The notes beneath the pieces were generated by a model. That model saw only the letters and a list, made by a program, of their open reading frames with translations, was not told the origin of the DNA and ran no database searches. A stretch of 34,658 bases of DNA from a bacterium (GTDB taxonomy: Bacteria; Fidelibacterota; UBA2242): the NCBI GenBank assembly GCA_018824205.1, contig JAHJGX010000185.1, forward strand, positions 1-34,658, in the 5' to 3' direction. Shown piece after piece: positions 14,990 through 31,302 of this stretch (position 1 is its first letter; each line of letters begins with the position of its first letter). Made by a program: the position numbers and the translations under genes.

Positions 14990-15880
14990 ATGACACGCTC
15001 AAAATCAATTTTCATAATTCTCGGGTTAGTAATTCTGCTGATCTGGAGTTTTGGCTGTAATAACGGCACACCGACCAATTCACAGAAATCCCAGTTACTT
15101 TATACCAGTAAAGCACTGATGAAAGCAGCAACATCAACCTCAACTTCTTCTGGTCTGACCGACATTCCGGTTGTGGGTGGTACGGTAAATATTCAGACTG
15201 CTCTGATTAATATTGCTGATTTGGTCATTGAAGAAAATTCCGGTGAGAACGATGAACAAATTGACGAGGAAGATGATCAGGATGATAATGAACAAGACGG
15301 CGATTTTCAGGATGGCGACCAGGACGAAGATCAGGATGATGGTGATAATGAAGACATCGATAATGAAGATGATCAGGACGGCGATTTTGAATATGGGGAG
15401 CAGGATAGCACCGATGATGAAGATGAGTCGGATATCGACGATATCATTGCAGCAGGTCCTTTCGCTTTGAATATCAGCAGTGGTCAGGCATTAATTGGTA
15501 CATTCGATGTTTACGCCGGCACATTTAAGCAGATTAACTTCACCTATAAAACTATTGATGGTAAAAGTGTTGCCATGAGTGGTGAATTTACAGCCGATGT
15601 AGGCTCACCGGTGGCATTCAGCCTGGAATCTGCGTTTGCCGAACAAGTTCAGATGCTGCTAAGCAATGGCGGAATCACTGTTGCCAGCGACACAACAGTG
15701 GAACTTACCGTTGTTTTTGACCTGGCAACGTGGTTAGCAGATGTTGATTTTAGCGGCGCCCAATTGACTAATGGCCAGATTCTGATCAACGGTAATAGCA
15801 ATCCGGGATTGCTGACGGCTTTTAACGCCAAACTGGCTCAGTACGTGGAAGTTGAAGATGGAGAAGAAGACGACGAATAG
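14990..15880 (+). CDS. lipoprotein with long Asp/Glu-rich block (DUF4382-like)
   Basis: 296 residues. The signal peptide ends in lipobox WSFG-C23, so the mature protein is lipid-anchored. Residues 63-80 (GTVNIQTALINIADLVIEE) and the part after 155 (GPFALNISSGQALIGTFDVYAGTFKQINFTYK) look like the two halves of a DUF4382-type beta-sandwich. Between them, residues 81-151 are almost only Asp, Glu, Gln, Asn and Gly, as a low-complexity insertion. Such acidic blocks often bind Ca2+ or other cations, but no exact DxDxDG loop array is present. The C-terminus is again acidic (DGEEDDE). It has its own sigma-54-like promoter and a strong terminator, so it is transcribed alone, probably under the upstream two-component system. 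Confidence 0.75.
   Translation: MTRSKSIFIILGLVILLIWSFGCNNGTPTNSQKSQLLYTSKALMKAATSTSTSSGLTDIPVVGGTVNIQTALINIADLVIEENSGENDEQIDEEDDQDDNEQDGDFQDGDQDEDQDDGDNEDIDNEDDQDGDFEYGEQDSTDDEDESDIDDIIAAGPFALNISSGQALIGTFDVYAGTFKQINFTYKTIDGKSVAMSGEFTADVGSPVAFSLESAFAEQVQMLLSNGGITVASDTTVELTVVFDLATWLADVDFSGAQLTNGQILINGNSNPGLLTAFNAKLAQYVEVEDGEEDDE
15230..15442 (+). repeat. imperfect in-frame tandem repeats encoding the acidic block
   Basis: Low-complexity GAT/GAA-rich DNA. The unit GACGGCGATTTT recurs at 15296 and 15377, 81 bp (27 codons) apart, each preceded by a GATGATCAGGA-type segment. The period is a multiple of three, so length changes by slippage would keep the reading frame and alter only the number of acidic residues. 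Confidence 0.65.
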
Positions 15881-16104: not shown

Positions 16105-18486
16105 ATGAAATTTATAAATATATTCATAGCGCTCTGTTTAATCAGTTCTAACCTTCTGCAAGCGGTTGACAAAATCAGTAATGGTTCAATAAATGGTATT
16201 GTCATTGATAAATCCTCACAGAAACCATTGACCGGCGTGAATATAATCATCCAAAGAACTGAACGAGGAACAGTGACCGCCAAAAACGGCCATTTTCATA
16301 TCGAACAGCTACCGCGTGGCCAATATTCTCTGACATTTTCTTCCATCGGCTATGCCGAAAAACAGGTGCAAAACATCACGGTTGAAATAGACAAAGAGAT
16401 AGATATTGGCGTGATCGAATTATCGGAAGAACCTATTAAACTTAGTGACGTCGTCGTCACGCCGGGACAGTTTTCAATCATGGGGACGATGCCATTATCC
16501 CAACAAACTCTCGCCAGCAAAGACATCAAAAATATGTCTTTTGCGGAGGATATCACCCGCGCTGTTTCCCGGTTGCCGGGTGTGTCTTCAAATGATTTTT
16601 CCTCAAAATTTACCGTCCGGGGCGGTGAAGCCGACGAAGTCCTGATGCTGCTCGACGGCATGGAACTGTACGAACCCTTTCATCAACGGGATTTCTCCGG
16701 CGGGCTTTTCAGCATTGTGGATATTGAAGCTATCGAAGGCGTTGATCTGTTGACCGGCGGATTTTCCGCTGATTATGGAAATCGCCAGAGCGCCGTCTTC
16801 AACATGAAAACCAAACAAATGACGGCGGGAGAAAGACACACATCCATTGGTTTAAGCATCATGAATGCCAGGATTTACACCGAAGGCGCTTTTTCCAACG
16901 ATAAGGGGAATTACCTGTTTACCGCCCGGAAAGGGTTGCTGGATCAGACTTTCAAACTTATTGGTGAAACCGAAAACATGCCATCCTTTTATGATATGAT
17001 GGGAAAAATCGAATTCCGTTTGAATCCAAAACACAGCCTGTCTTTCCACGCCCTGCATGCCGGTGATAAAACCGCTGTCCGGGACATTGCTCCGGAAGCC
17101 CACGACATCCACGATACTCAATATACAAACAGCTATGGCTGGCTGACCATGAAATCAGTTTATAATCCAAAATTGTTTTCCCGGACTCTGTTATACAGCG
17201 GATTTGTTCATCACAACCGCCGTGGCAATACCGCCAAAGATGAATATTCCGATAAATTGAACTTTCAGCTGAGTGACAAACGAAGCTACAACTTTATTGG
17301 ATTCAAACAGGACTGGAACTGGAGCCTGTCGGATAAAGTCTATTTAAAAAGCGGCTATGATATCCGGCAACTGAATGCTGACTATGATTATTCACTGGAT
17401 CTGAATGACATCCGGATCAATGAAAATGACAGTCTCATTCAATACAATGAATTGGTCAATATTCATAAAAAACCAGCCGGACAACAGGCAGCCGCTTATG
17501 TTTCCAGTCGTTTTCTCGTTTTACCAAAACTGTTTCTGGAAACCGGCTTGAGATATGACTACGCCTCCTATACCAATGATAAATTGCTCAGTCCGCGCAT
17601 CAGTCTGGCCTATACGATCAAAAAAAATACTGTTATTCGCGGCGCCTGGGGGTATTATTATCAGACCCAGTTTATTAATAATCTGGATGTGAACCATAAT
17701 ACCAAGACCTTCAATCCGGCAGAACTTTCAACGCATTATGTGCTGAGCCTGGAACATTTATTTAAAAATGGTATCAATTTAAGGATTGAAGGATACTACA
17801 AAGACATATCAAATATCAGTGCAAATTTCCAGAATCTCCGTGATCCCTGGGAAGTCTATCCAGAGTCACGCAATGATGTCGTCAAACTGGACATTGATGG
17901 CGCCTTTGCCCAGGGAATCGAAATTTTTATGAAGTACGATACCGGCGATAAAATTTCCTGGTGGTTCAGTTATGCCCTGGCAAAAGCCGATGAAAATATC
18001 ACGAAACTCGAATTTGACGGCCTGCTGATAGAACGAACCGGAACATTGCCGCGCATCAACAACCAGCGCCATACGATTTACTGCGATGTCAATTACCGTC
18101 CAAATCCAAAATGGCTTATCAACCTTTCCTGGCAGTATTACATAGGCTGGCCTTTGACTCTGTATGAGTATCATTTCCAGACGCTGCCCGATGGACGATT
18201 GCATTTTTACCCGCTCCATACTGAATTCAGAGCCGATGAATATCCACCGTATCACCGAATGGATCTCCGCATCAACCGGCACTTCGATTTAAAACACGGC
18301 AAACTGTCCGCTTACATCCATATTATTAACCTTTATAACCGTGAAAATCTGCGGAAGTTCGATTTGGACGTCACCGGTGACAACGGGCAGACCATTCCCG
18401 ACGAACAGGGCGGCTATATCTATCCTCGTGACGATAAAAATTGGTTTGGTATCACTCCGGTAATCGGATTCAGCTGGGAATTTTAA
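16105..18486 (+). CDS. TonB-dependent outer-membrane receptor (receptor 1)
   Basis: 793 residues. Signal peptide (1-20), a carboxypeptidase-regulatory-like domain (about 27-105, GSINGIVIDKSSQKPLTGVN), a plug domain (about 125-235, with FTVRGGEADEVLMLLDG and GGFSADYGNRQSAV), then a beta-barrel to a C-terminal SWEF with the terminal Phe. It imports a ligand that cannot be named from sequence. The Shine-Dalgarno GGGAGA lies before the ATG. It overlaps nothing and is followed after 4 nt by receptor 2. Its 5' leader and both ends recur at 28430-28630 as a collapsed copy, so this is the intact member of a duplicated pair. Confidence 0.92.
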   Translation: MKFINIFIALCLISSNLLQAVDKISNGSINGIVIDKSSQKPLTGVNIIIQRTERGTVTAKNGHFHIEQLPRGQYSLTFSSIGYAEKQVQNITVEIDKEIDIGVIELSEEPIKLSDVVVTPGQFSIMGTMPLSQQTLASKDIKNMSFAEDITRAVSRLPGVSSNDFSSKFTVRGGEADEVLMLLDGMELYEPFHQRDFSGGLFSIVDIEAIEGVDLLTGGFSADYGNRQSAVFNMKTKQMTAGERHTSIGLSIMNARIYTEGAFSNDKGNYLFTARKGLLDQTFKLIGETENMPSFYDMMGKIEFRLNPKHSLSFHALHAGDKTAVRDIAPEAHDIHDTQYTNSYGWLTMKSVYNPKLFSRTLLYSGFVHHNRRGNTAKDEYSDKLNFQLSDKRSYNFIGFKQDWNWSLSDKVYLKSGYDIRQLNADYDYSLDLNDIRINENDSLIQYNELVNIHKKPAGQQAAAYVSSRFLVLPKLFLETGLRYDYASYTNDKLLSPRISLAYTIKKNTVIRGAWGYYYQTQFINNLDVNHNTKTFNPAELSTHYVLSLEHLFKNGINLRIEGYYKDISNISANFQNLRDPWEVYPESRNDVVKLDIDGAFAQGIEIFMKYDTGDKISWWFSYALAKADENITKLEFDGLLIERTGTLPRINNQRHTIYCDVNYRPNPKWLINLSWQYYIGWPLTLYEYHFQTLPDGRLHFYPLHTEFRADEYPPYHRMDLRINRHFDLKHGKLSAYIHIINLYNRENLRKFDLDVTGDNGQTIPDEQGGYIYPRDDKNWFGITPVIGFSWEF

Positions 18487-18490
18487 ACCT

Positions 18491-20914
18491 ATGACTAAAT
18501 GTAACTCTAGCCGATTCATCGTAATCGGCCTACTGATTTCTACGATCAACGTTTCTTCGGTACAGGCTGCGAACAACTCCCTCACCGGAAAAGTAGTTGA
18601 AAAATCCACATCGGAACCGCTGGAATTTGCCAATGTCGTTGTATTTATATCCAGCGACAGTTCCCAGGTTGCCGGCGCAACAACGGATGAATTCGGCATT
18701 TTCAAATTTTCCGGTCTTTCCGACGGTAATTATTATGCGCAAATCGGTTTTATCGGATTTTCAACACTGACCACACCCGCCTTTTCACTGAAAAACAGCG
18801 CTCTTGATCTGGGCGTCCTCAAAATCGAAATCAGCCCGATTGCACTGGGAAATGTCGAAGTAAACGCCGAAAAAGCAACTTTCAACAACTCAATCGATCG
18901 TAAAATCTACAATGTCGAACGAGATATTCTCAGTCAGACGAGTTCCGCCAGCGATCTCTTGCAAAATATTCCGTCCGTGTCTGTAGATGTGGATGGAAAC
19001 ATCAGTCTGAGAGGCGCAGAAAATGTGACGATTTTTATCAACGGTAAACCCTCCTTACTGATGCGCAAAAACAGCGCGGTGGTCCTGCAGCAGATGCCGG
19101 CAAATTCCATTGAGCGCATCGAGGTGATTACCAACCCTTCGGCAAAATACAAACCCGACGGCGTCAGCGGCATTATTAACATTGTTCTCAAAAAAGAATC
19201 CCGGCCGGGATTAAATGGAACGGTCAGCGCCAGTGCAGGCAACCAGAATCGCTATAATGCCAACACCAATTTGAACTATAAGCTGGAACGATTAAATCTG
19301 TATGGAGGCTATGCATTACGCCACCGCAACAGCCCCCGGGTTTCGACCAGTTCGAGAATCACCCGGGATTCGTCGCGCCAGGCTATCAGTTATTACGACG
19401 ACAACAGTTCATCCGGCAGCGGAGCGTTGGCACATGTCCTTAATGGTGGTTTAGACTATACGCTCAATGAAAAAAACCAGTTCGACGTTTCCGGTAATTA
19501 TTTTTACCAGGACTCCTATCGCGATCAGACATCGCATACAATTTTCCGCGACGTCATGCGGCAAATCACGACTGATTTCAATACTGACCGAACCAATAAC
19601 GAGTATGAAAAAGAATGGGAGCTCACTTCCACGTTTGAGCACAATTTTAATAAAGAAGATCATCTGCTTAATTTTGAACTCAATCACTCCGGCTACAATG
19701 AAGAGGAAGACAACCTATATGACGAGACATACACCGTTCCGGATAATTCCAATGCATTGCACCATATCCAGATTCGAAAAGGCGGGACTCTGACGGAATT
19801 GTATGCTGAATATACATATCCGATCAATGAAGAAACTGAAATTGAGGCAGGTTATGTCGGGGAATATTTGAGAGATGACATCCGATACCTGGGTGAAGAT
19901 TTCAATCAGCAGCAGAACAATTGGATTACCGACGCCAATAAAACGAACCGTTTTCTGTTTCACCAGGACATCCACGCTCTTTATGGCACATTCGGACATT
20001 CCTTTGAAGATTTTAGTTTCCTGGCAGGACTACGGGCAGAGCAGGCGTTGATTACTTCGAACCTCGTCAGTTCGGATTCAACAATTGACAATGACTATTT
20101 CAAACTGTATCCCACTCTGCATCTGACGTATCAATTCAGCGATCGTCAGGAAATCCAGCTGAATTACAGCCACCGTGTAAACCGGGCAGACAGTGACGAG
20201 CACAATCCCTTTGCCGAATACTCCGACCCCCGAAATATGGAAGCCGGGAACCCGAAAATCAAACCGGAACAAATCCATTCCGTTGAGCTTGGCTATCATT
20301 TAAAAACAGAACATTTCTCCGTTTTGCCGACTGTTTATTACCGCTATAAATATGATGCGTTTACCGAAATACGGCAGTATGTCAACGACACCACCATGCT
20401 TCGAACCCATACAAACCTCGCCAGCGATCGATCAGCCGGAGCGGAGCTCGTTGTTTCCGCCAATATCAAAAATATCCTGAACCTGAATTGGAGCGCCGAC
20501 GCCTTTTATCAGGTCATCGATGCCACTAACCTGGGTTATTCTGAGAATAAATCAACCATTTCGTGGAATACCAAATTGGCAGCGAATCTTCATTTGACCA
20601 AATCCAATCTGATCCAACTGAATGCCTATCACCGTTCCGCCCGGCTGACACCGTAAGGCAAAACTTTTCCATTGTTTCTGTTAAATTTGGGCGTCCGCCA
20701 GGATTTCTTGAATCAAAAGGCTTCCCTGATAATCTCTGTATCCGATGTATTGAATTCCCTGAAATGGACCCGCGAAATTGACACACCAATTCTGTACGAA
20801 AAATCAATGAGCAAACGAAATTCACAAATTCTCTCGATTGGATTCAGTTATCGGTTTGGTAAATCCGGCAAAAAAGAGGAAGCGGAGTTCAAATTTGAAG
20901 ATTCGATTCCGTAG
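18491..20914 (+). pseudogene. TonB-dependent receptor / outer-membrane beta-barrel (receptor 2), interrupted by TAA
   Basis: 807 codons if read through. Signal peptide, carboxypeptidase-regulatory-like domain (about 31-115), plug (about 140-235, LQNIPSVSVDVDGNISLRG) and an OMP_b-brl_3-type barrel. Codon 722 (20654-20656) is TAA inside ...ARLTP-stop-GKTFP. The frame stays open for 85 more codons and finishes the family-typical end (SDVLNSLKW, FSYRFGKSGKKEEAEFKFED). A Gln (CAA) is expected there, so one C-to-T change explains it. The 721-residue product would lack the last strands and probably not assemble. Everything else is intact, so the mutation is recent or a sequence error. It starts 4 nt after receptor 1. 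Downstream, CCGT/ACGG before TTTATTTT (about 20908-20930) is a weak terminator candidate. Confidence 0.85.
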
Positions 20915-21062
20915 GTGACGGTTTATTTTCGTATATCGACTGTTCAGCAGATTAAAATCATTCCCTAATTATCTAAGTCCAAATAAATTTTCGTCCATCA
21001 CCCGCTCATAAGATTAATCTTGTCAAGTGAGTTCAATTATAAATTAGAGGAACCACATCTCA

Positions 21063-21395
21063 GATGATGTCAGTTATTTGCCGATTATCGTCAATATATT
21101 GGCACATTGAGTAAAATGCCAAATGCCTTCAGGATCAGAAAATATCGTAATATTATCCATTGTCAAAGAATAATTCTCGACGACAAATATATATTTTATC
21201 AAAAAACATATTTTGGGGCATGGTATTTGTCAGAATGGATTACTGAGATTTGAATTGTGAAAGGAAAAATATGCGAACCAAAATTGGATTAATCCTGCTC
21301 TTTGTGATGCTTACGGCATTCGGAAAAACAGTCACCATCAGTGGATTTATGAGAGATGCTTCCAATGGTGCAACGCTGATCGGGGCTAATATCTA
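21063..21395 (+). repeat. duplicated receptor-3 leader and 5' coding end (copy A)
   Basis: Matches 28808-29141 across the intergenic leader and the first 41-42 codons of receptor 3. The 90 bp around the start (21216-21305) differ at only a few positions, while the distal leader is more diverged. Both copies contain a TTGCCGAT...ATTGGC inverted repeat (21079-21105) able to form a hairpin. Homology stops abruptly after AATATCTA. The preceding 20915-21062 shows no gene. Confidence 0.85.
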
Positions 21396-21495
21396 TGATA
21401 TAACGATAACAAAGCAGCAATTGAACAAGATTTTGCAAACAGTCACAATAGACAATCTGTTTCATGATCCAATTGACACATTATGGATAAAGTAA
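21271..21495 (+). pseudogene. truncated receptor-3 copy fused to the tail of an unknown gene
   Basis: 74 codons. Residues 1-41 (MRTKIGLILLFVMLTAFGK..., ISGFMRDASNGATLIGANIY) copy the signal peptide and start of the carboxypeptidase-regulatory-like domain of receptor 3 (29017-31302). From 21396 the sequence is unrelated: ITKQQLNKILQTVTIDNLFH and on to LWIK, then TAA. That tail is coupled to the next gene by TAATG, as a natural upstream gene would be, so it is probably the 3' end of a lost island gene joined in frame by recombination. A Shine-Dalgarno (AAAGGA) precedes ATG 21271. The product is unlikely to function. Confidence 0.8.
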
Positions 21496-22568
21496 TGAAA
21501 TTGAAAAGAGAAAAAGATCCCATTTTAATTTTTGATAATTCGACTAAATGGACTTGGTCGGCAAGAAAATTACAAAGGGAAAAATGTAATATTAGCAGTA
21601 TCACAGACAATTATACTCCAAAACCCGGAGATGTTGTTGTTGTGCAAGTATTGAAAGTCGCAAACCATACCAGAATTTACTCTTTCGACAATAAATTTGT
21701 ACGATTATACCAGGGTGATATCATTGCTGGCACATTGGGCTTCAGATATGCATCCGACGCTTTTCATGCCGATACAATTAATCTTTCAAATCTCCATCTA
21801 TTGACAAATTCAGGGTTGATTGGTACCGTTAAAAACAGGCATTTAAAGATCGGTGAACCAACCAGAGTAAAATTAATTGGAACCATTGCAGATAGGCAAA
21901 ATGGTAAAAATGTTAATTTGAAAGAAACGTTCTTTCATCCCGGCAATTTCAATTTGATTTATCCACCGGTGATTTTTGTCATTGGCTCAGGTATGAACAG
22001 TGGTAAAACCACAAGTGCAGCACGAATTGGGCGGTTATTAATTGAACGCGGTCTGTCTGTATCATTATTGAAAGTGACCGGGAGTGTTGCTTATCGCGAT
22101 CTTTTCGAATATGAAGCGACAGGGGCACAATATACGGCTGATTTCAGTGATTATGGGTTCCCATCAACTTACCTGTGTTCACAGAAAGAACTGGTTGCGT
22201 TATATTCCCGCATGCTTGAGGATACGCTTTCAATAAAACCCGATGTGGTGATTGTGGAAATTGCGGATGGCATATTACAACGTGAAACACAACTATTATT
22301 AAAATCAAACATTGCAAGATTCACCAGCATCGGGGTCATCCTGACAGCGCCTTGTGCATGCTCTGCATTGACACTGGTTGAAAAAGTAAAACAGCTGGAC
22401 TATTCACCCATTGCCGTTACAGGTTTAATTACCAATTCGCCATTATTTGTTGCCGAGTTTGCATCATACGACAATACTCCGGTGTGGGATACAAATGCGA
22501 ATCCGGATCAATGGGTTGACCGGGTAATTGGACGTTTAAAAGGCACTTCGAAATATATTATGGTCTAA
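21495..22568 (+). CDS. P-loop NTPase with unrecognised N-terminal domain
   Basis: 357 residues, no signal peptide or TM segment. The C-terminal half is a SIMIBI/dethiobiotin-synthetase/MobB-like P-loop domain: Walker A GSGMNSGKTTSA at about 164-175, Walker-B-like VVIVEIADG at about 250, and GLITNSP near the end. It recalls DUF1611-type proteins, but I cannot confirm that. The first 150 residues (GDVVVVQVLKVANHTRIY..., GLIGTVKNRH) look all-beta and are unfamiliar. ATG 21495 overlaps the preceding stop (TAATG); ATG 21483 is an alternative start. The ABC exporter starts directly after its stop, so the two form an operon. A role in making or activating something the exporter handles is an inference. 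Confidence 0.7.
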   Translation: MKLKREKDPILIFDNSTKWTWSARKLQREKCNISSITDNYTPKPGDVVVVQVLKVANHTRIYSFDNKFVRLYQGDIIAGTLGFRYASDAFHADTINLSNLHLLTNSGLIGTVKNRHLKIGEPTRVKLIGTIADRQNGKNVNLKETFFHPGNFNLIYPPVIFVIGSGMNSGKTTSAARIGRLLIERGLSVSLLKVTGSVAYRDLFEYEATGAQYTADFSDYGFPSTYLCSQKELVALYSRMLEDTLSIKPDVVIVEIADGILQRETQLLLKSNIARFTSIGVILTAPCACSALTLVEKVKQLDYSPIAVTGLITNSPLFVAEFASYDNTPVWDTNANPDQWVDRVIGRLKGTSKYIMV

Positions 22569-24377
22569 ATGCCTGAAAACAAAGCAAACAAGAATACATC
22601 CTGGCTTGCCATATTAAAGCCCTATTTAAAACCATTTTATGGAACAATAGCATTAGCAATTGTTTTTATGACCGTCGATTCTTTGCTCACGGCTTTGCGC
22701 CCCTGGCCCTTGAAAGTTATTATCGACACGGTTCTTAGCGGTCAGAATATTAAAATACCTTTTATAGCCGGATGGATTAATGATCCCGCATTAAGTAGTA
22801 CATCTGTTTTATATGCAGCCTGCATCGCAATGTTAATGATCGCGATAGGAACAGGAGCATTCTCGTACCTGTTTACCCTGCTTGTGGGAAATTTTTCACA
22901 GCGGTTTATTTTTAATTTAAAAATTACAACATTCCATCATTTACAGCGGCTTTCATTACAGTTTCATACAAACAAAAGGCTCGGGGACATAATGACCCGT
23001 TTGACCTCCGATATTAATTCTATCCAGTTGCTGACCTCCCGGGGAGCCATGTTGTTTTTAACGAATTTCTTCCTGATTGCAACACGGCTGGTCATAATGT
23101 TCTGGCTGAACTGGAAATATTCGCTTATTGCCTGTTCGGTGCTACCGTTATTATTTCTATCCATCTGGTGGCATACCGCTAAAATAAAGACAGCCTCGAG
23201 GGTCGCGCGTGCCAGCGATGGCGAAATGGCATCCATTGCGCAGGAAACCCTGGGTTCAATCCGGATTGTTAAAGGCTTAGCGCAGGAAAAAAGACAGGAT
23301 CAACTTTATGTTGATCAGGGTAAAAAGAGCCTGGCAGAATATATGGGACGTGTAGCACATCAGGCGCGTATGTCGCCCATTATTGATTTCCTGGCTGCCG
23401 TTGGACTTACGCTTGTCATGTTTTATGGAGCAAAAGGAGTAATGGCAGGGAGTTTAACAATCGGGGATATGATTGTATTCTTTTTTTATGTTTCCGGTTT
23501 TTACAGTCCCGTACGAGCCATGTCAAGACAATTTGCTAATTTTTCAAATGGAATAGCAGGCGCTGAACGGGTGGCAGAGGTATTGGCAAAAGATATATTT
23601 ATTAAAAAAGATAAAAATGTAATAAGCGCACCCTGTTTTAAAGGTATGATTGAATTTAAAAATGTTTCATTTGAATATGAACCGGGGCAAAATGTATTAA
23701 AAGATATTTCATTAACTATCCAGCCCGGTGAGCATATCGCAATTATTGGAGCCACCGGCGCCGGTAAAAGTACCATCGCCAGCTTACTCTTACGGTTTTA
23801 TGATCCCGTGAAGGGAGCTGTACTGATCGATGGAAATGATATCCGGCATTATTTGCTTGAATCTCTGCGCAAACAAATAGGACTTATTTTACAGGATTCC
23901 TACTTATTAGCCGGAACAATTCGGGAGAATATTACTTTCGGCTGCGCCGATATTCCTGATGAAGAACAAATAATCAGAGCGGCAAAAGCAGCCCGCGCGC
24001 ACGAGTTTATTTGCAAATTGCCACGTGGATATGATGATCATGTTTCTGAAGGTGGCGCGAACCTTTCCGGCGGGCAGCGTCAAAGGATAGCCATTGCCCG
24101 GGCTATTATCCGGGATGTCCCGATACTCTTGCTTGATGAACCTACGAGCAACCTGGACAATATGTTCGAAGCAGCGGTTCTCGATACGTTAAAAAATATA
24201 TCCTACAAGCCTACTATTATTATAATAACTCATTCATTGCAAGCCGCAAATATGTCCGATACCATTGTAGTTGTTGAGAATGGTGAAATAATCGAATATG
24301 GTTCGCCGGATGAACTGGGTAATAATGGAGACAGGTTTAAAAAATACATTGAAGCAGGGCTACTGAAAAAGAGATAA
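22569..24377 (+). CDS. ABC exporter half-transporter (MsbA/lipid-exporter type)
   Basis: 602 residues. An N-terminal type IV exporter membrane domain with six helices (about 20-320) is followed by an ATPase domain with Walker A GATGAGKS (about 394-401), Q-loop LILQDSY, signature LSGGQ (about 498), Walker B ILLLDEPTSNLD and switch His in ITHS. It should work as a homodimer exporting a lipid, peptide or polymer intermediate across the inner membrane. There is no N-terminal peptidase C39 domain, so a bacteriocin-type processing exporter is unlikely. The ATG follows the P-loop gene's TAA with no gap. Its place with an outer-membrane protein and a CapA fusion suggests envelope polymer or peptide export. 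Confidence 0.92.
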   Translation: MPENKANKNTSWLAILKPYLKPFYGTIALAIVFMTVDSLLTALRPWPLKVIIDTVLSGQNIKIPFIAGWINDPALSSTSVLYAACIAMLMIAIGTGAFSYLFTLLVGNFSQRFIFNLKITTFHHLQRLSLQFHTNKRLGDIMTRLTSDINSIQLLTSRGAMLFLTNFFLIATRLVIMFWLNWKYSLIACSVLPLLFLSIWWHTAKIKTASRVARASDGEMASIAQETLGSIRIVKGLAQEKRQDQLYVDQGKKSLAEYMGRVAHQARMSPIIDFLAAVGLTLVMFYGAKGVMAGSLTIGDMIVFFFYVSGFYSPVRAMSRQFANFSNGIAGAERVAEVLAKDIFIKKDKNVISAPCFKGMIEFKNVSFEYEPGQNVLKDISLTIQPGEHIAIIGATGAGKSTIASLLLRFYDPVKGAVLIDGNDIRHYLLESLRKQIGLILQDSYLLAGTIRENITFGCADIPDEEQIIRAAKAARAHEFICKLPRGYDDHVSEGGANLSGGQRQRIAIARAIIRDVPILLLDEPTSNLDNMFEAAVLDTLKNISYKPTIIIITHSLQAANMSDTIVVVENGEIIEYGSPDELGNNGDRFKKYIEAGLLKKR

Positions 24378-24413
24378 AAAATAATTATAAAAACAAAAAC
24401 AGGATTAACTAAA

Positions 24414-25193
24414 ATGATATACAAACCCAGATTAAATCACATGGTTGACAAGCAAATGAAAACAGATTTTACAGGACCGTTGATAGCATTATCGTTATCA
24501 ATTTGTTTTTGGATTTTAGTTCTGTCAAGCCCCGCCTTTTCACAGAATGATGGACAAGACAATAATACAGGTACACCTTCAGTAACATCCGGTACGGCAT
24601 TGATTTTACAACCGGGTGTCGGTTTGCGGTATAATCTAAATAAAAAGATCGGGTTGTATCAGGATTTTAGAACCTACTTTAACAAAAGTAATCCGGTAAA
24701 AAACTTTGAGGAACTGAGTTTTGGCGCCAGATATAATCTCGGAAAAATTAAGAAATTCCATTTTTCTACAACGATAGGTTACTTGCTTTCGCTCGATAAT
24801 AATTATAAAATTCATGAATACCGGCCCAAAATTTATTTTACAACCGGTTATCACCTGAAAAAAGTCGGATTTGAATTCCGAAACCGGTTTGAATACCGTA
24901 TTAAAACAGGAGAGAATTCAGGCAGCTCATTGCGGTACCGGCCAAGGTTCAAGGTGGGATTAAGGTATAATTTTCATCAATTTCAACTTTCACCCTACAT
25001 TTATAATGAGTTATTTTTCGGGGAAAATGGATTTAGTCAGCATCGGATCAAGCTGGCATTATCGGTTAAATATCATGATTTTCGTTTTACCGCAGGTAAT
25101 TTGTTCAAAATAAAACCGGGCCAGGGATTGGTTGAAAACAGGGTGTCTTTGGATGTTAGTTATACCATCCCATCCTCAAAAAAGAATAAATAG
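24414..25193 (+). CDS. small outer-membrane beta-barrel protein (DUF2490-like)
   Basis: 259 residues. A long signal peptide (hydrophobic 22-43, cut after AFSQ) is followed by a short low-complexity linker and repeated amphipathic strands (GVGLRYNLNKKIGLYQDFRTYF, FRNRFEYRIKTG, LRYRPRFKVGLRYNF), resembling DUF2490-type barrels. The start ATG 24414 has AGGA 9 nt upstream. It lies 36 bp after the ABC exporter and is likely in its operon, so it may be the outer-membrane exit or an envelope partner of the exporter. It ends 18 bp before the left end of the IS element. Confidence 0.75.
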   Translation: MIYKPRLNHMVDKQMKTDFTGPLIALSLSICFWILVLSSPAFSQNDGQDNNTGTPSVTSGTALILQPGVGLRYNLNKKIGLYQDFRTYFNKSNPVKNFEELSFGARYNLGKIKKFHFSTTIGYLLSLDNNYKIHEYRPKIYFTTGYHLKKVGFEFRNRFEYRIKTGENSGSSLRYRPRFKVGLRYNFHQFQLSPYIYNELFFGENGFSQHRIKLALSVKYHDFRFTAGNLFKIKPGQGLVENRVSLDVSYTIPSSKKNK

Positions 25194-25211
25194 AACTATG
25201 CGATGAAAAAC

Positions 25212-25971
25212 GTTAACTCCGGATCCTTTATTTTTATCTTGGGTCATGACTATTTTAGCATAGAAAAAGAGATGCTAACTTATTGTCATGAAACAAATTA
25301 ACAGGTACAAAAAACGATCACGCATTTCTGAGTACAAATTCAGGTAAATTATCAGGCACTTTTCTCTGGATCTGACTGCCTCCCAAATCGCTAAATTGAC
25401 GAATATAAATCGAAATACGATCAATACATATTTGATACAGATAAGAAAAAAGATTGCTGAATACTGTGAACAACAATCACCATTTGCTGCTGAAATCGAA
25501 GTTGATGAAAGCTATTTCGGTGCCAGGAGAGTTAAAGGTGTCAGAGGTCGTGGAGCTAGAGGAAAAACCATTGTGTTTGGTATTTTTCAACGTAACAGAA
25601 AGGTCTACACTGAGATCGTTCCAGACTGCAAAAGCAAAACACTTCGAGCAATTATTCGAGGGAAAGTTAGTGTGGAAAGCATCATTCATACGGATACTTG
25701 GCGCGGATATTCCGGGCTGGTAGATATTGGTTACCAAAAACATTATCGCGTCAAACATGGAATCAACGAATTTGTAAATGGAAAATCTCACATCAACGGT
25801 ATAGAAAGCTTTTGGGCGTTTGCAAAAACCAGACTTAGTAAATTCAGAGGCCTGAACAAAAATACTTTTTACCTGCATTTGAAAGAAACGGAGTTTAGAT
25901 TTAACCATAGAAATGATCGGAATATTTTGAACAAACTTATTCTCAAAATCATCAAAGAAAATCCGCTTAAC
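25212..25971 (+). mobile_element. IS1595-family insertion sequence
   Basis: The boundaries are set by a short imperfect inverted repeat: GTTAACTCCGGAT at 25212 and the complement of AATCCGCTTAAC ending at 25971 (GTTAAGCGGATT). No convincing 8-bp target duplication is seen, so one end may be wrong or lost. It carries one transposase gene with a nonsense codon. It separates the outer-membrane protein gene from the peptidase-CapA gene. Confidence 0.6.
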
Positions 25972-25974
25972 TAG
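25288..25974 (+). pseudogene. IS1595-family transposase (ISXO2-like), nonsense codon near the start
   Basis: 228 codons. It starts MKQINRYKKRSRISEYKFR, then TAA at 25345-25347, then IIRHFSLDLTASQIAKL in the same frame: an intact helix-turn-helix region with one stop in place of a sense codon, probably Glu (GAA). The ISXO2-like DDE domain follows, with EVDESYFGARRVKG, HTDTWRGYSG, HGINEFVNGKSHINGIESFW and the family-typical end FYLHLKETEFRFNHRN. A start at the TTG at 25396 would make a 192-residue protein lacking the DNA-binding region. The element is therefore probably immobile unless helped. Confidence 0.85.
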
Positions 25975-26032
25975 TCTATACCCTTTATCTTTGAGATAAA
26001 CGTATCTTTTTATAGAAAACAATGTTCATTGC

Positions 26033-28471
26033 ATGATAGCCATCAGTTCTGATAAAAAACAAAAACAAGTTTTAGGGCAGGTTTACCTTTGGACCCCTGA
26101 TGCGTCTTTACCTTTGGGTGGTTCTATCCAGAAATCAATTGTATCTCTTTCATGGCTTAATGGCTCTTTTAATTTAGAAAATCATTTGTCAAGCCCGTAT
26201 GCAGTCATTAAAAATGCCGGAACCATCAACCTGCCGGATGAACATTCAGGATCCATAATTCCAACTCCACTTGGTGATGCCCAACCTGATTCAGAGGGCA
26301 ATTTCATTTTCGAGCCTTTTAATGGCGGCGGAAGAATGGATAAAGAAGCCTTGGTAGATGAATTTAGAAGGTATAAAAATATTCAGGCAGCGCGGTTCGG
26401 AGAAGTGAATACTTTTTACCACATCAATAAAATCGCATCATATATTGATGAACTTCTGAACGAACTGGGAGAACGTCCGTTACCACGCCTGAAAGTGGTT
26501 GTGAATGCGCATCCTGCGATTTACACACAGAACGGTAAAAGGGATGGCTGCCGGGGACTAAAAAGTGGGAAATGCTTGCCATTCCAGGGCGGGCATTACC
26601 GGTCGTCTTCCAGAAATCTGCCGGATACGCCAGAATTTCATCCAATTTCACCCGATGGAGAGATTCATCTTGGTCCGGGCTGGCGGCTGACCGAATTTGG
26701 GGCATTGCCGGAATTCGCCAAATGTAAATATCGCTGCAATGCATCTCATAATGCAGGAATTATTTACCACGAATACGGGCATCACGTAACAAGACATACA
26801 GCCGATTTTATGGCTAACCGTTTTCGGGCTCCTCACAGGCAAAGCAACCAGAAATCGGATCTGGATGAAGCCATAAGTGATTATTGGGCGGCTACAATGC
26901 TGGATTGTCCCCACATTTGGACATGGCACCGGAAACACACCAGGAATGAAATTCATCCCCGAAGTCTGGCTTCCATAAAGACCATGACTGCTTTTGATTC
27001 AGGGAGCAATGCCGATCCGCATTTGAACGGGACAATCTATGGCGCGGCTCTTTGGGATATGCGCAATGAATTTTGTGAAATGTACTCTGATGGATCCCGA
27101 AAAATGGATTTGATCGTTTTGAAATCCCTCATTTTAATGGGACAATTACAGGATTCAGAATTCAACCCGACGACAACCGGCGCCCGTAAATGCCGCTCTG
27201 GATTTGGTACCGGCAGAGCTTCTTTGGCAGAGGCTGATAAAATCTGTTATGATGGCAGGCACTCCGAAATTATTACAAAATGTTTTTCACAAAGAGGAAT
27301 AGATAGTAAAAATCTGAAAAGGTCTATTCCTTGCAGAGATTTAAATGCGGGACACATTCCAACCATTAACGTGCCGGACCGGAACATAGAAAAATCGGTC
27401 ATACATATTTTAAAACGAGACGAGCATGCTATTATTCCTAAAACGAATGAAATATTATCGCGTCAGGAACTTGAAACGAAATTAGGAACAAATAAAACCG
27501 GTCCTTTTTCATTAACGGTGGTTGGCGATATTATGCTCGGTTCAAGGATGAATAAACTCCTTCATAAATTCGGCCCTGAATATCCGTTTTATTCTGTTTA
27601 TCCTATTTTAAGAAGGTCGAGCATTGTTTTAGGCAATCTGGAAGGCCCTTTAGCAAAGATAACTAAGAAACAAGAACGTAATTATAGTTACAGAGTAAAT
27701 CCTAAAAATGCCCGAATACTTCGGCGCGCTGGATTTAATGTAGTGACTATGGCCAACAATCATATATTGGATTGCGGCCGTCAGGGGGTTCTTGAAACGT
27801 TCTCCGCCCTCAAAAAACATGGGATCAGGTACATTGGCGCCGGAGAAAATGAGGAAAACGCGCACGTTCCGGCAATTTTGCAGGCAGGTAAATATAAGAT
27901 TGGCTTATTGGGATATTATTGGAATCGCCGGACATCGGCCCGGGGCTCAAAACCGGGTAGTGCCATAGATACTCAGGAACATGTCGCCAACGATATCCAT
28001 GACTTACGTCCCTATGTCGATAGGGTGGTTGTAACTGTGCATTGGGGTGTTCCTTACGAACGATATCCATCAGAAGAGGACCGAGAGAAAGCTCATTTTG
28101 CCGTCGACTGTGGTGCGGATATCGTCATTGGCCATCACCCGCACGTTGTTCAGCCTTTTGAGATGTATAAAAACCGACCCATATTTTACAGCATCGGGAA
28201 CTTTGCATTCGGCTCGGGAAACAGTAAAGCTGAATCAATAATGCTGGCGATTATTTTTCAGGAAACCTATACTGAACTTACAATTTTTCCAGCCTATATA
28301 AAAAATCGTGACCATCGTATCAACTATCAACCCCGAATAATAACTGGCAATGCCGCCTTTGAGAGTATTAACCGATTGAAAAAAATATCCGGAACATCAG
28401 CAGATTTTATTTATTTTGAGAATGATACAGGGAAAATAATATCGTCTCAATGCCAGGGGGAGGTAAAATGA
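26033..28471 (+). CDS. zinc-metallopeptidase-like domain fused to CapA (PGA capsule) domain
   Basis: 812 residues in two parts. The N-terminal part (about 1-430) carries a gluzincin-like site: H246-E-Y-G-H250 with a likely third ligand E279 in LDEAISDYWA, then GTIYGAALWDMRNE, as in M4/M36-type peptidases. The C-terminal part (about 492-790) is a CapA/PgsA-like metallophosphatase-fold domain: GDIMLG (499-504), NLEGP (535-539), ANNH (574-577), HWG (670-672), GHHPH (700-704), SIGNF. CapA proteins take part in poly-gamma-glutamate synthesis or anchoring and normally carry an N-terminal membrane anchor. None is visible here, and the ORF opens only 60 bp after the IS, so the N-terminus may have been lost. 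No good Shine-Dalgarno precedes ATG 26033. Its last codons overlap a copied receptor-1 leader. Confidence 0.8.
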   Translation: MIAISSDKKQKQVLGQVYLWTPDASLPLGGSIQKSIVSLSWLNGSFNLENHLSSPYAVIKNAGTINLPDEHSGSIIPTPLGDAQPDSEGNFIFEPFNGGGRMDKEALVDEFRRYKNIQAARFGEVNTFYHINKIASYIDELLNELGERPLPRLKVVVNAHPAIYTQNGKRDGCRGLKSGKCLPFQGGHYRSSSRNLPDTPEFHPISPDGEIHLGPGWRLTEFGALPEFAKCKYRCNASHNAGIIYHEYGHHVTRHTADFMANRFRAPHRQSNQKSDLDEAISDYWAATMLDCPHIWTWHRKHTRNEIHPRSLASIKTMTAFDSGSNADPHLNGTIYGAALWDMRNEFCEMYSDGSRKMDLIVLKSLILMGQLQDSEFNPTTTGARKCRSGFGTGRASLAEADKICYDGRHSEIITKCFSQRGIDSKNLKRSIPCRDLNAGHIPTINVPDRNIEKSVIHILKRDEHAIIPKTNEILSRQELETKLGTNKTGPFSLTVVGDIMLGSRMNKLLHKFGPEYPFYSVYPILRRSSIVLGNLEGPLAKITKKQERNYSYRVNPKNARILRRAGFNVVTMANNHILDCGRQGVLETFSALKKHGIRYIGAGENEENAHVPAILQAGKYKIGLLGYYWNRRTSARGSKPGSAIDTQEHVANDIHDLRPYVDRVVVTVHWGVPYERYPSEEDREKAHFAVDCGADIVIGHHPHVVQPFEMYKNRPIFYSIGNFAFGSGNSKAESIMLAIIFQETYTELTIFPAYIKNRDHRINYQPRIITGNAAFESINRLKKISGTSADFIYFENDTGKIISSQCQGEVK

Positions 28472-28620
28472 AATTATTCAACCTGTTTTTAGTGCTTAGA
28501 GTAATCAGTTTCAGCAATCTGCAAACGATTCCTGATGGGCAGGGTGGCTATATTTATCCTCATGATGATAGGAACTGGTTTAGTATAGTACCGATTATCG
28601 GATGTAGCTGGGAATTTTAG
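28468..28620 (+). pseudogene. receptor-1 copy collapsed to 50 codons by internal deletion
   Basis: It reads MKLFNLFLVLRVISFSNLQ joined to TIPDGQGGYIYPHDDRNWF... and ...SWEF then TAG. The first 19 residues match residues 1-19 of receptor 1 (16105-18486) and the last 31 match its residues 763-793; about 2.2 kb between is missing. The break falls at short similarity (GCAAGC / GCAGAC in receptor 1), and the frame is kept. The receptor-1 Shine-Dalgarno region is also copied (CCAGGGGGAGGTAAAATG), so it would be translated, overlapping the CapA stop by 4 nt. A 50-residue product with a signal-like start and a barrel-end tail has no evident function. Confidence 0.85.
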
Positions 28621-28807
28621 CCCTATAGATACAGGTATCATTTATAATTAGTTTCTAAATTCATCTATTTATATTTGGATATCTGGTTTACAGAAGACCA
28701 AAATTCTTCACGTAATGTCGATATCCCGATAAATCCACACTCAATATCTGCTTATAAGATAGATATTCATAGAATAGGTCTCCTCACTATTCAAAAGATC
28801 CCATCGC

Positions 28808-29141
28808 GGATCGTGTTAAATATTTGCCGATAATCGTCAGCTTATTGGCGCATTGAGTAACGCACCGGATACTGAGAGGATTGGCAAATACGGTATTATT
28901 ATTCTTTGGAAAAGAATACTTCCCGACGACAAATGAATAATTCACCCGAAATATATTTTTAGGGCATGGTATTTGTCAGAATGGATTACTGAGATTTGAA
29001 TCGTGAAAGGAAAATTATGCGAACCAAAATTGGATTAATCCTGCTCTTTGTAACGCTTACGGCATTCGGAAAAACAGTAACTATCAGTGGATTTATGAGA
29101 GACGCATCCAGCGGTGAAGCACTGATCGGAGCAAATATCTA
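28808..29141 (+). repeat. duplicated receptor-3 leader and 5' coding end (copy B)
   Basis: Counterpart of 21063-21395, here in front of the intact receptor 3. It includes the TTGCCGATAA...TTATTGGC inverted repeat (28824-28851) and the near-identical block from 28962 to the start codon. The interval 28621-28807 before it holds only a short tail of receptor-1 homology and no gene that I can see. Confidence 0.85.
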
Positions 29142-31302
29142 CATAAGTAAGATAAAAACCGGGACGACTACTAATTCTTACGGCTTTTATTCCCTGTCCG
29201 TACCATACAGTGACAGTATTGGAGTAATCTATTCGTATATCGGATTCGAACCTCAAATTAAAAAGCTGTATATCAAAGATAACCTGAAACTTGATGTTAC
29301 CCTTACTCCAGGCGCCATTGCCCTTAATGAAATCGTCGTCTCCGGGCATAGACAAAACGAGAACATTGAAACCAAACAAATGAGTATCGTCGACATTCCG
29401 GTCAGGACGATGAACAAGCTCCCGGCAATTCTCGGAGAAACCGATATATTAAAAGTTGTTCAATTACTGCCGGGCGTGCAATCCGGTTCGGAAGGCACTA
29501 CGGGCTACTTTGTCAGAGGTGGCAATGCCGACCAGAATCTGGTTTTACTTGACGAAGCCACTGTGTATAATCCGAATCATCTGTTTGGGCTTTTAAGCGC
29601 CTTCAATTCCCGGGCAATCAATAATGTCACATTAATTAAAGGTGGTTTCCCAGCCCAATACGGCGGACGCTTGTCGTCCAGTATGGATATTACGATGAAA
29701 GAAGGTAACGACAAAGCCTATCATCTGGATCTTGGCCTGGGCCTGATCAATTCTAAACTGACGATTGAAGGTCCCATTGTGAAAAACAGGGCTTCTTTTA
29801 TCATCTCCGCCCGCCGAACCTATATGGATCTTTTACTGAAACCCTTCCCCAAAATATTGAGCACCAACTATTCTTTTTATGATATAAATGCCAAAGTCAA
29901 TTTCAAATTATCCGATAAAGACAGAATGTTTTTCAGTTATTTCAACGGACAAGACCGGGCAGCTTACGTGGCTGCAAACAGTCTTAATTATGACTTTATG
30001 TTCGGTAACAAAACCGCAACTTTTCGCTGGAACCACATTCTTAATGAAAAATTATTTGTCAATACGTCGTTGATCTATAATGGTTATCTGATGGATCTCA
30101 AAACAATCCAGAGCAGCTTCTTCGCTGAGTTCTATTCAAAAATCGAAGACTATAACGGAAAAGTCGATTTTGAATATTTCCAGAATCCAAAGAATACTGT
30201 GAAATTTGGATTCAACTATACACATCATACTTTCACCCCTACCGGCACTTCCGGCAAAGCGCCGAAAGATTCCACCTTAAAAGTAATTAATCCCGGTATT
30301 ATTCAGACAAAAATTGCCTCCGAAGCTGCACTTTATATCAATGACGAGGTTAATTTGACGGACCGTTTGGGTATCAATATTGGTTTGCGACGGCCCGGAT
30401 TCCAAACCGGGAACACCTCCTACTATTGTGTTGAACCGCGGTCAACAATCAAGTACACGCTTACTGAAAATTCATCCGTCAAAGCCGCTTATACTGTCAT
30501 GAACCAGTTTGTGCATCTGGTTCCGAGCGCGACCGCCTCGATCCCCACTGACATCTGGCTTCCGTCGAGTGATATTGTAAAACCGCAACGGTCAAAACAG
30601 ATCGCCCTGGGATACTTTTTAAATCTGAAGGATAATTCCTACGAAGCCAGCGTGGAAACGTATTACAAAACCATGGACAGGCAGGTCGCATTTAAAGAGG
30701 GAACGCGGCTTATCGAGCAGACTAATATTGACAGCCAACTTGTCTTCGGTAAAGGCTGGTCTTACGGAGTCGAATTTTTCCTCAAGAAGAAAGCCGGACG
30801 ATTCAGCGGCTGGCTTTCCTATACCCTTTCCTGGACGAATCAGCAATTTCCTGATCTGAATTTTGGCAAGGTTTTCCCATTTAAATATGACCGACGCCAC
30901 AATCTTGCACTCGTTGGGGTCTATGAATTAAATAAAAACTGGATTCTGTCCTCAAATTTTATTTTTACTTCCGGCAATGCCATGACCTTACCGGGCGGCA
31001 GGGTGAGCGTGTATGAAGGCGGCGATCTTTATAACGGTGTTTTTGATGTTTATACCGGTAAGAATAACTATCGCCTGAACCCCTACCATCGGCTGGACGT
31101 CGCCGCCACCTATAAGCATAAAGGGCATTTATTTCACCAAAGTTATGACGGCGAGCTGGTCATCAGCATCTACAATGCATACAGCCGCATGAATCCGTAC
31201 TTTGTGTATGTCGATGTCGAACCAGCGTCGAAAAAAGCGTTCGCTAAACAGGTTTCTCTGCTACCAATAATTCCAGGTATCAGTTATAACTTCAATTTTT
31301 AG
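29017..31302 (+). CDS. TonB-dependent outer-membrane receptor (receptor 3, DUF4249 partner)
   Basis: 761 residues. Signal peptide (1-18), carboxypeptidase-regulatory-like domain (about 22-105, TISGFMRDASSGEALIGAN), plug domain (about 120-235: LPAILGETDILKVVQLLPGV, GYFVRGGNADQNLVLLDEA, GGFPAQYGGRLSS), then a barrel ending in Phe (YNFNF). The ATG at 29017 has AAAGGA 6 nt upstream; the in-frame TTG at 28996 is less likely. A DUF4249 lipoprotein gene follows after 11 bp, a pairing common in Bacteroidota-like genomes. The ligand is unknown. A truncated copy of its start lies at 21271. Confidence 0.93.
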   Translation: MRTKIGLILLFVTLTAFGKTVTISGFMRDASSGEALIGANIYISKIKTGTTTNSYGFYSLSVPYSDSIGVIYSYIGFEPQIKKLYIKDNLKLDVTLTPGAIALNEIVVSGHRQNENIETKQMSIVDIPVRTMNKLPAILGETDILKVVQLLPGVQSGSEGTTGYFVRGGNADQNLVLLDEATVYNPNHLFGLLSAFNSRAINNVTLIKGGFPAQYGGRLSSSMDITMKEGNDKAYHLDLGLGLINSKLTIEGPIVKNRASFIISARRTYMDLLLKPFPKILSTNYSFYDINAKVNFKLSDKDRMFFSYFNGQDRAAYVAANSLNYDFMFGNKTATFRWNHILNEKLFVNTSLIYNGYLMDLKTIQSSFFAEFYSKIEDYNGKVDFEYFQNPKNTVKFGFNYTHHTFTPTGTSGKAPKDSTLKVINPGIIQTKIASEAALYINDEVNLTDRLGINIGLRRPGFQTGNTSYYCVEPRSTIKYTLTENSSVKAAYTVMNQFVHLVPSATASIPTDIWLPSSDIVKPQRSKQIALGYFLNLKDNSYEASVETYYKTMDRQVAFKEGTRLIEQTNIDSQLVFGKGWSYGVEFFLKKKAGRFSGWLSYTLSWTNQQFPDLNFGKVFPFKYDRRHNLALVGVYELNKNWILSSNFIFTSGNAMTLPGGRVSVYEGGDLYNGVFDVYTGKNNYRLNPYHRLDVAATYKHKGHLFHQSYDGELVISIYNAYSRMNPYFVYVDVEPASKKAFAKQVSLLPIIPGISYNFNF

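Follow-up and report, generated by a model that had tools for sequence, protein, structure and literature searches.

A conserved cassette pairing an ABC exporter with a BioD-like NTPase, between broken receptor genes of a Fidelibacterota genome

Several described systems share parts with the genes considered here. Those of poly-gamma-glutamate (CapBCA or PgsBCA) carry the CapA/PGA_cap domain (PF09587). Dethiobiotin synthetase (BioD), MobB, and the DgcN-type proteins of DUF1611 have in common a SIMIBI P-loop domain with a Walker A motif, a K-x-TG motif, and a following Asp. A family of cyanophycin-associated ABC transporters (NF052233) resembles the exporter, and Type I exporters, consisting of an ABC protein, an adaptor, and TolC, likewise include such a protein. 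Finally, RiPP clusters like that of the lasso-peptide epimerase MslH combine a CapA-family domain with a protease and an ABC exporter, MslH itself being a CapA-family protein that epimerizes peptides (PMC9266682).

The island and its borders

The window, i.e., the whole stretch analyzed here, comprises 34,658 nucleotides from a bacterium of the Fidelibacterota (UBA2242; contig JAHJGX010000185.1 of assembly GCA_018824205.1). The original prediction had placed between 21396 and 28440 an island carrying a P-loop NTPase, a gapless ABC exporter, a small outer-membrane protein, an IS1595 element, and a peptidase-CapA fusion, flanked by broken copies of receptor genes. All the named genes are present, each on the forward strand, the flanks are as described, and the bounds are accurate, since both edges could be mapped as matches to receptor genes and the final codons of the fusion gene turned out to be replaced by upstream sequence of receptor 1.

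Two TonB-type receptor genes, receptor 1 (16105-18486) and receptor 2 (18491-20656), lie to the left of the island, and to its right is receptor 3 (28996..31302, forward strand), an intact TonB-dependent receptor with a CarboxypepD_reg domain recognized by Pfam. The left border is a truncated copy of receptor 3 (21056..21412, forward strand), made up of its upstream region and first 42 codons (41 had been predicted) and 81% identical to 28802-29158; the match ends where the island begins, and the remnant may provide a promoter or leader for the genes that follow. The right border is a collapsed copy of receptor 1 (28434..28626, forward strand) that retains its first ~20 and last ~33 codons: 28434-28530 matches at 71% the start of receptor 1 plus its 34 upstream nucleotides, and 28521-28626 matches its last codons at 79%. 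In the simplest history, the three receptor genes would have been duplicated in tandem and the island would have entered between the two sets, after which most of receptor 3 was deleted from the first copy and most of receptors 1 and 2 from the second. No uninterrupted counterpart of the site was found; receptor 3 has relatives elsewhere of only about 30% identity, and receptor 1 has hardly any. Receptor 2 stops at 20656, yet a receptor-like C-terminal frame resumes at 20672-20914, so the gene looks frameshifted or broken. Upstream of receptor 1, 14990-15880 encodes a lipoprotein-like protein with a long acidic run of Asp and Glu and no Pfam match.

The first gene of the island (21483..22568) encodes an NTPase of 361 amino acids, identified from an AlphaFold2 model (mean pLDDT 94) and PDB matches as a SIMIBI/BioD-like P-loop protein. 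By structure comparison, its C-terminal domain matches BioD, SRP GTPases, HypB, and CTP synthase, with Foldseek alignments about as long as the P-loop domain alone, and profile alignment to 3fgn and 6cve reveals a BioD-like Walker A and K-x-TG...D motif. The extra domain at the N-terminus carries a conserved RYA-x-D motif, and no convincing match to a solved chain was found for it by sequence. No existing family covers the protein: CbiA, MobB, and DUF1611 score best, all of them below the cut-offs of Pfam and NCBIfam. PF07755 (DUF1611/DgcN) scores 13 bits against a cut-off of 25 and matches 30 of 44 relatives weakly; TIGR00347 (BioD) gives weak matches to 7 of the 44 and none to the window protein.

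With a gap of 0 nt, the NTPase gene is followed by that of the ABC exporter (22569..24377; 602 amino acids), which has its membrane and ATPase domains (PF00664 and PF00005) in a single chain and intact Walker A and B, LSGGQ, and H-loop motifs. Membership in the cyanophycin-associated family NF052233 was ruled out on score (382 bits against a cut-off of 880). The small outer-membrane protein (24414..25193; 259 amino acids) has a hydrophobic N-terminal segment and belongs to the DUF2490 beta barrels (PF10677, E 3e-13); its predicted model is a barrel of low confidence (pLDDT 59). The 839 nt that separate it from the fusion gene contain an IS1595-family transposase gene (NF033547; 25288..25974), which is decayed: codon 20 of its full frame is an in-frame stop, and the transposase remnant lies at 25396-25974.

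The last gene (26033..28471; 812 amino acids) fuses an M36-type zinc protease (PF02128) to a domain of the CapA/PGA_cap metallophosphatase fold (PF09587, E 1.6e-72). The catalytic motifs HEYGH, DEAISD, GDIM, NNH, and GHHPH are all present. Judged from sequence and hydropathy, the window protein has neither a signal peptide nor a membrane helix, and the same is true of four relatives, save for one internal hydropathy window just above 1.6 in one of them (L135). Full-length homologues of 49-72% identity occur in four other genomes.

The cassette in other genomes

If the genes form a unit, one might expect to meet the same order elsewhere without the IS. This is the case in a Porphyromonadaceae MAG (locus L039), where NTPase, ABC exporter, outer-membrane protein, and fusion are 71, 78, 58, and 72% identical to those of the window and separated by 8, 47, and 11 nt. 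It is also the case in a second genome (G852), drawn from the same phylum and found with the M36-CapA profile alone, with identities of 62, 70, 55, and 59% and gaps of about 10, 34, and 10 nt. The IS1595 element is missing from both.

Other lineages vary the arrangement. The fusion gene stands between NTPase and exporter in a Planctomycetaceae MAG and in Bradyrhizobium embrapense, and in Chlorogloeopsis fritschii PCC 6912 the parts are separate genes, in the order NTPase, ABC exporter, small secreted protein, CapA, OprB porin, and M36. Here the M36 protein has a hydrophobic N-terminus, so that in one lineage at least its site of action can lie outside the cytosol. NTPase is followed by CapA in a further genome found with the M36-CapA profile (G829), and it adjoins M36 in Pseudonocardia. 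Elsewhere the third gene encodes an M14/AstE-like hydrolase (Planctomycetes, Acidobacteria, archaea) or an alpha/beta hydrolase, often accompanied by porin O/P, and most of these third proteins lack an obvious signal peptide, again judged from sequence and hydropathy. M14/AstE-like hydrolases occur near the NTPase in 13 loci and isoaspartyl-peptidase-like proteins in 4, the latter seen by eye in a Planctomycete, Flavobacteriaceae, and Alphaproteobacteria.

The fusion itself is rare. In the phylum of the Porphyromonadaceae MAG, for which 396 genomes were covered, full-length matches are confined to that MAG and G852; the Bradyrhizobium genome has 149 other relatives, none of them with the fusion; and at the cut-off used, the cyanobacterial M36 had no match among 148 other relatives. 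On plasmids, a search at the sensitivity used yielded nothing related to the M36 half or to the outer-membrane protein.

The NTPase and the exporter are another matter. On plasmids of Sulfitobacter and Paracoccus, relatives of the NTPase are directly followed by an ABC gene, and an ABC-like reading frame follows the relative on a Tritonibacter plasmid. A scan of genome contigs with the single NTPase sequence found no relatives, and an alignment of the plasmid relatives was needed; with it, at least 572 were found in GTDB genomes. The best 80 loci, which were kept, span many bacterial phyla as well as Thaumarchaeota and Thermoplasmata, and carriers of the gene pair include Nitrosopumilus, Nostoc, Ruegeria, Planctomycetes, and Porphyromonadaceae MAGs; no relatives were found in viral contigs. 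An ABC exporter lies no more than 300 nt downstream in 64 of 81 loci (these 80 plus the window), several of the remainder stopping at a contig edge or holding the fusion gene in between. By a stricter count, an ABC exporter follows 49 of 65 NTPase ORFs and 8 of 781 other ORFs. Since the NTPase served to collect the loci, the association with ABC is the quantity tested; neighborhoods came from mechanical ORF calls, many of the loci are MAG contigs, and taxa are named after the titles of their records. Tree distances of the two proteins are correlated (Mantel r 0.76, 0 of 2000 permutations), a figure to which shared organismal history contributes.

Further neighbors were noted. In Acidobacteria and Pirellulales, four loci of the NTPase-ABC-M14 type encode, judged by eye, a conserved small membrane protein and an HTTM-like membrane protein as well. 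Genes with VTC and DUF4956 domains lie near the pair in several Rhodobacteraceae (four loci); these were weighed as a hint of polyphosphate, but they are present in only a subset of loci.

The original prediction had offered the joining of the genes into one pathway as conjecture. Because the order recurs without the IS, the parts co-occur, and the NTPase-ABC pair is widespread, that idea is now well supported, and the cassette very probably represents one conserved functional unit.

It had also proposed a comparison of base composition between island and flanks. GC at third codon positions is 0.345-0.398 in the island genes, whereas neighboring genes range from 0.444 to 0.517, and the NTPase was not found in 148 other related genomes searched. 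The block was therefore acquired. Horizontal transfer would also fit the contrast between PyrE of the window, 85-88% identical to that of congeners and 45% to that of G852, and the exporter, which shares 70% identity with its counterpart in G852 and 78% with the one in the Porphyromonadaceae MAG.

Possible functions

Horizontally acquired, the island is probably one copy of a conserved, unnamed operon for biosynthesis or processing and export, its core being the BioD-like NTPase and the ABC exporter, usually side by side. The NTPase, in the cytosol, would spend ATP in activating or modifying a compound derived from a carboxylate or an amino acid; the M36-CapA fusion, also cytosolic, would cut an amide bond in the compound, epimerize it, or both; the exporter would move the product across the inner membrane; and the DUF2490 barrel would release it. 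In other lineages, M14/AstE-like or alpha/beta hydrolases might fill the slot of the fusion, and OprB or porin O/P that of the barrel. The gene identities, their conserved order, the correlated trees, the catalytic motifs, the acquisition, and the IS insertion can be read from the sequences; we infer the ATP-dependent ligation or activation, the cytosolic location, the order of these steps, and the chemical class of the product. The absence of obvious signal peptides in the fusion and in most third proteins favors processing before export over anchoring at the surface, and the fusion looks more like a peptide-processing enzyme than an anchor. Motif conservation makes an epimerase role of the MslH type a candidate for the CapA domain, which matches the MslH model weakly (76 bits against a cut-off of 700).

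The lack of signal peptides, the epimerization of peptides by MslH, and the recurrence of amide-type hydrolases together favor a small product of amide or peptide type, a class of exported product that may be put forward at somewhat less than even confidence. More tentative still is the proposal of an undescribed and ancient export system common to bacterial and archaeal lineages. A BioD-like ligase whose N-terminal domain is unique would assemble or tag a small molecule that is itself conserved; one of several exchangeable hydrolases of the cytosol (M36-CapA, M14/AstE-like, or alpha/beta) would complete it, and its secretion would fall to a dedicated ABC exporter. Several considerations count against the processing-and-export reading: the N-terminal domain of the NTPase has no solved match, so ligase chemistry stays putative; the M36 protein of Chlorogloeopsis begins with a hydrophobic segment; the cassettes have no conserved small ORF for a precursor; and the IS-bearing gap may lower expression of the fusion gene.

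Perhaps, instead, the NTPase is no enzyme of synthesis at all, and serves the exporter as an energy-coupling or regulatory ATPase, as ArsA does ArsB, the operon being a stress or efflux pump with accessory hydrolases, induced by neighboring two-component or sigma systems. The SIMIBI fold is common to SRP-type NTPases, genes for histidine kinases and response regulators or for sigma and anti-sigma factors adjoin many NTPase-ABC pairs, and RND-efflux-like and PepSY genes flank the cassette of G852. The exporter, however, has an intact ATPase domain of its own, the NTPase retains the K-x-TG...D motif of BioD along with its conserved extra domain, and a homologue in Priestia megaterium does without an ABC protein, within a cluster of PEP-mutase and ATP-grasp genes, so this alternative seems unlikely. 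The Priestia cluster (L037, a plasmid locus, 4718-13418) resembles those for phosphonate peptides and holds two ATP-grasp genes, an ornithine carbamoyltransferase-like gene, TPP enzymes, and a PEP mutase-family gene.

Less likely again is the surface-polymer pathway originally predicted, in which units activated by the NTPase end up in a poly-amino-acid that leaves by way of the ABC protein and then the barrel, to be anchored or trimmed by CapA at the surface. The name of CapA does derive from the capsule systems of poly-gamma-glutamate, and a Microvirga homologue of the NTPase lies near an ORF that resembles, by eye, a CphA-like ATP-grasp protein and is annotated in PLSDB as CapA family. Yet annotation of the cassettes revealed no CapB- or CapC-like polymerase, the fusion of the window shows neither signal peptide nor membrane helix and its relatives look much the same, third proteins elsewhere mostly look cytosolic, and archaeal versions have no outer membrane to cross. 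Neither the polymer nor the anchoring part of the prediction is supported. That the island is merely fortuitous, a set of passengers around a duplicated receptor locus, as absence from the 148 relatives, repeats at both edges, and an IS inside might suggest, is scarcely credible given the exact order kept in two other genomes and a pair kept across many phyla.

The processing-and-export operon remains, then, the preferred reading. With its correlated trees and interchangeable hydrolases, the pair in all likelihood produces, or else exports, a single conserved class of molecule that is apparently unnamed. No description of the pair or its function was found in the literature searched, which lay mostly outside subscription journals. 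Carriers that can be cultured include Chlorogloeopsis PCC 6912, Nostoc, Ruegeria, and Bradyrhizobium embrapense.

Comparison with known systems

As had been predicted, the island is not a standard poly-gamma-glutamate system: Pfam scans of its genes and annotated neighbors detected no Mur-ligase domain such as that of CapB/PgsB, and no integral membrane partner like CapC occurs among its annotated genes. Unlike the CapA of those systems, that of the island is fused to an M36 protease and lacks any signal or membrane segment that would make it a membrane-anchored extracytoplasmic protein, and an ABC exporter is present. The cassettes differ from RiPP clusters of the MslH type in lacking a precursor peptide, no small ORF being conserved across three of them, and the score of the window's CapA domain is far below the MslH cut-off. 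Systems with the cyanophycin-associated ABC transporter are set apart by cyanophycin synthetase, absent here, and Type I exporters by an HlyD-like adaptor, also absent, and by a TolC-like barrel, in whose place the cassette has one of DUF2490. The NTPase, finally, is distinguished from BioD, MobB, and DUF1611, below all of whose cut-offs it falls, by an added all-beta N-terminal domain of about 130 amino acids with an invariant RYA and by its genetic tie to an ABC exporter.
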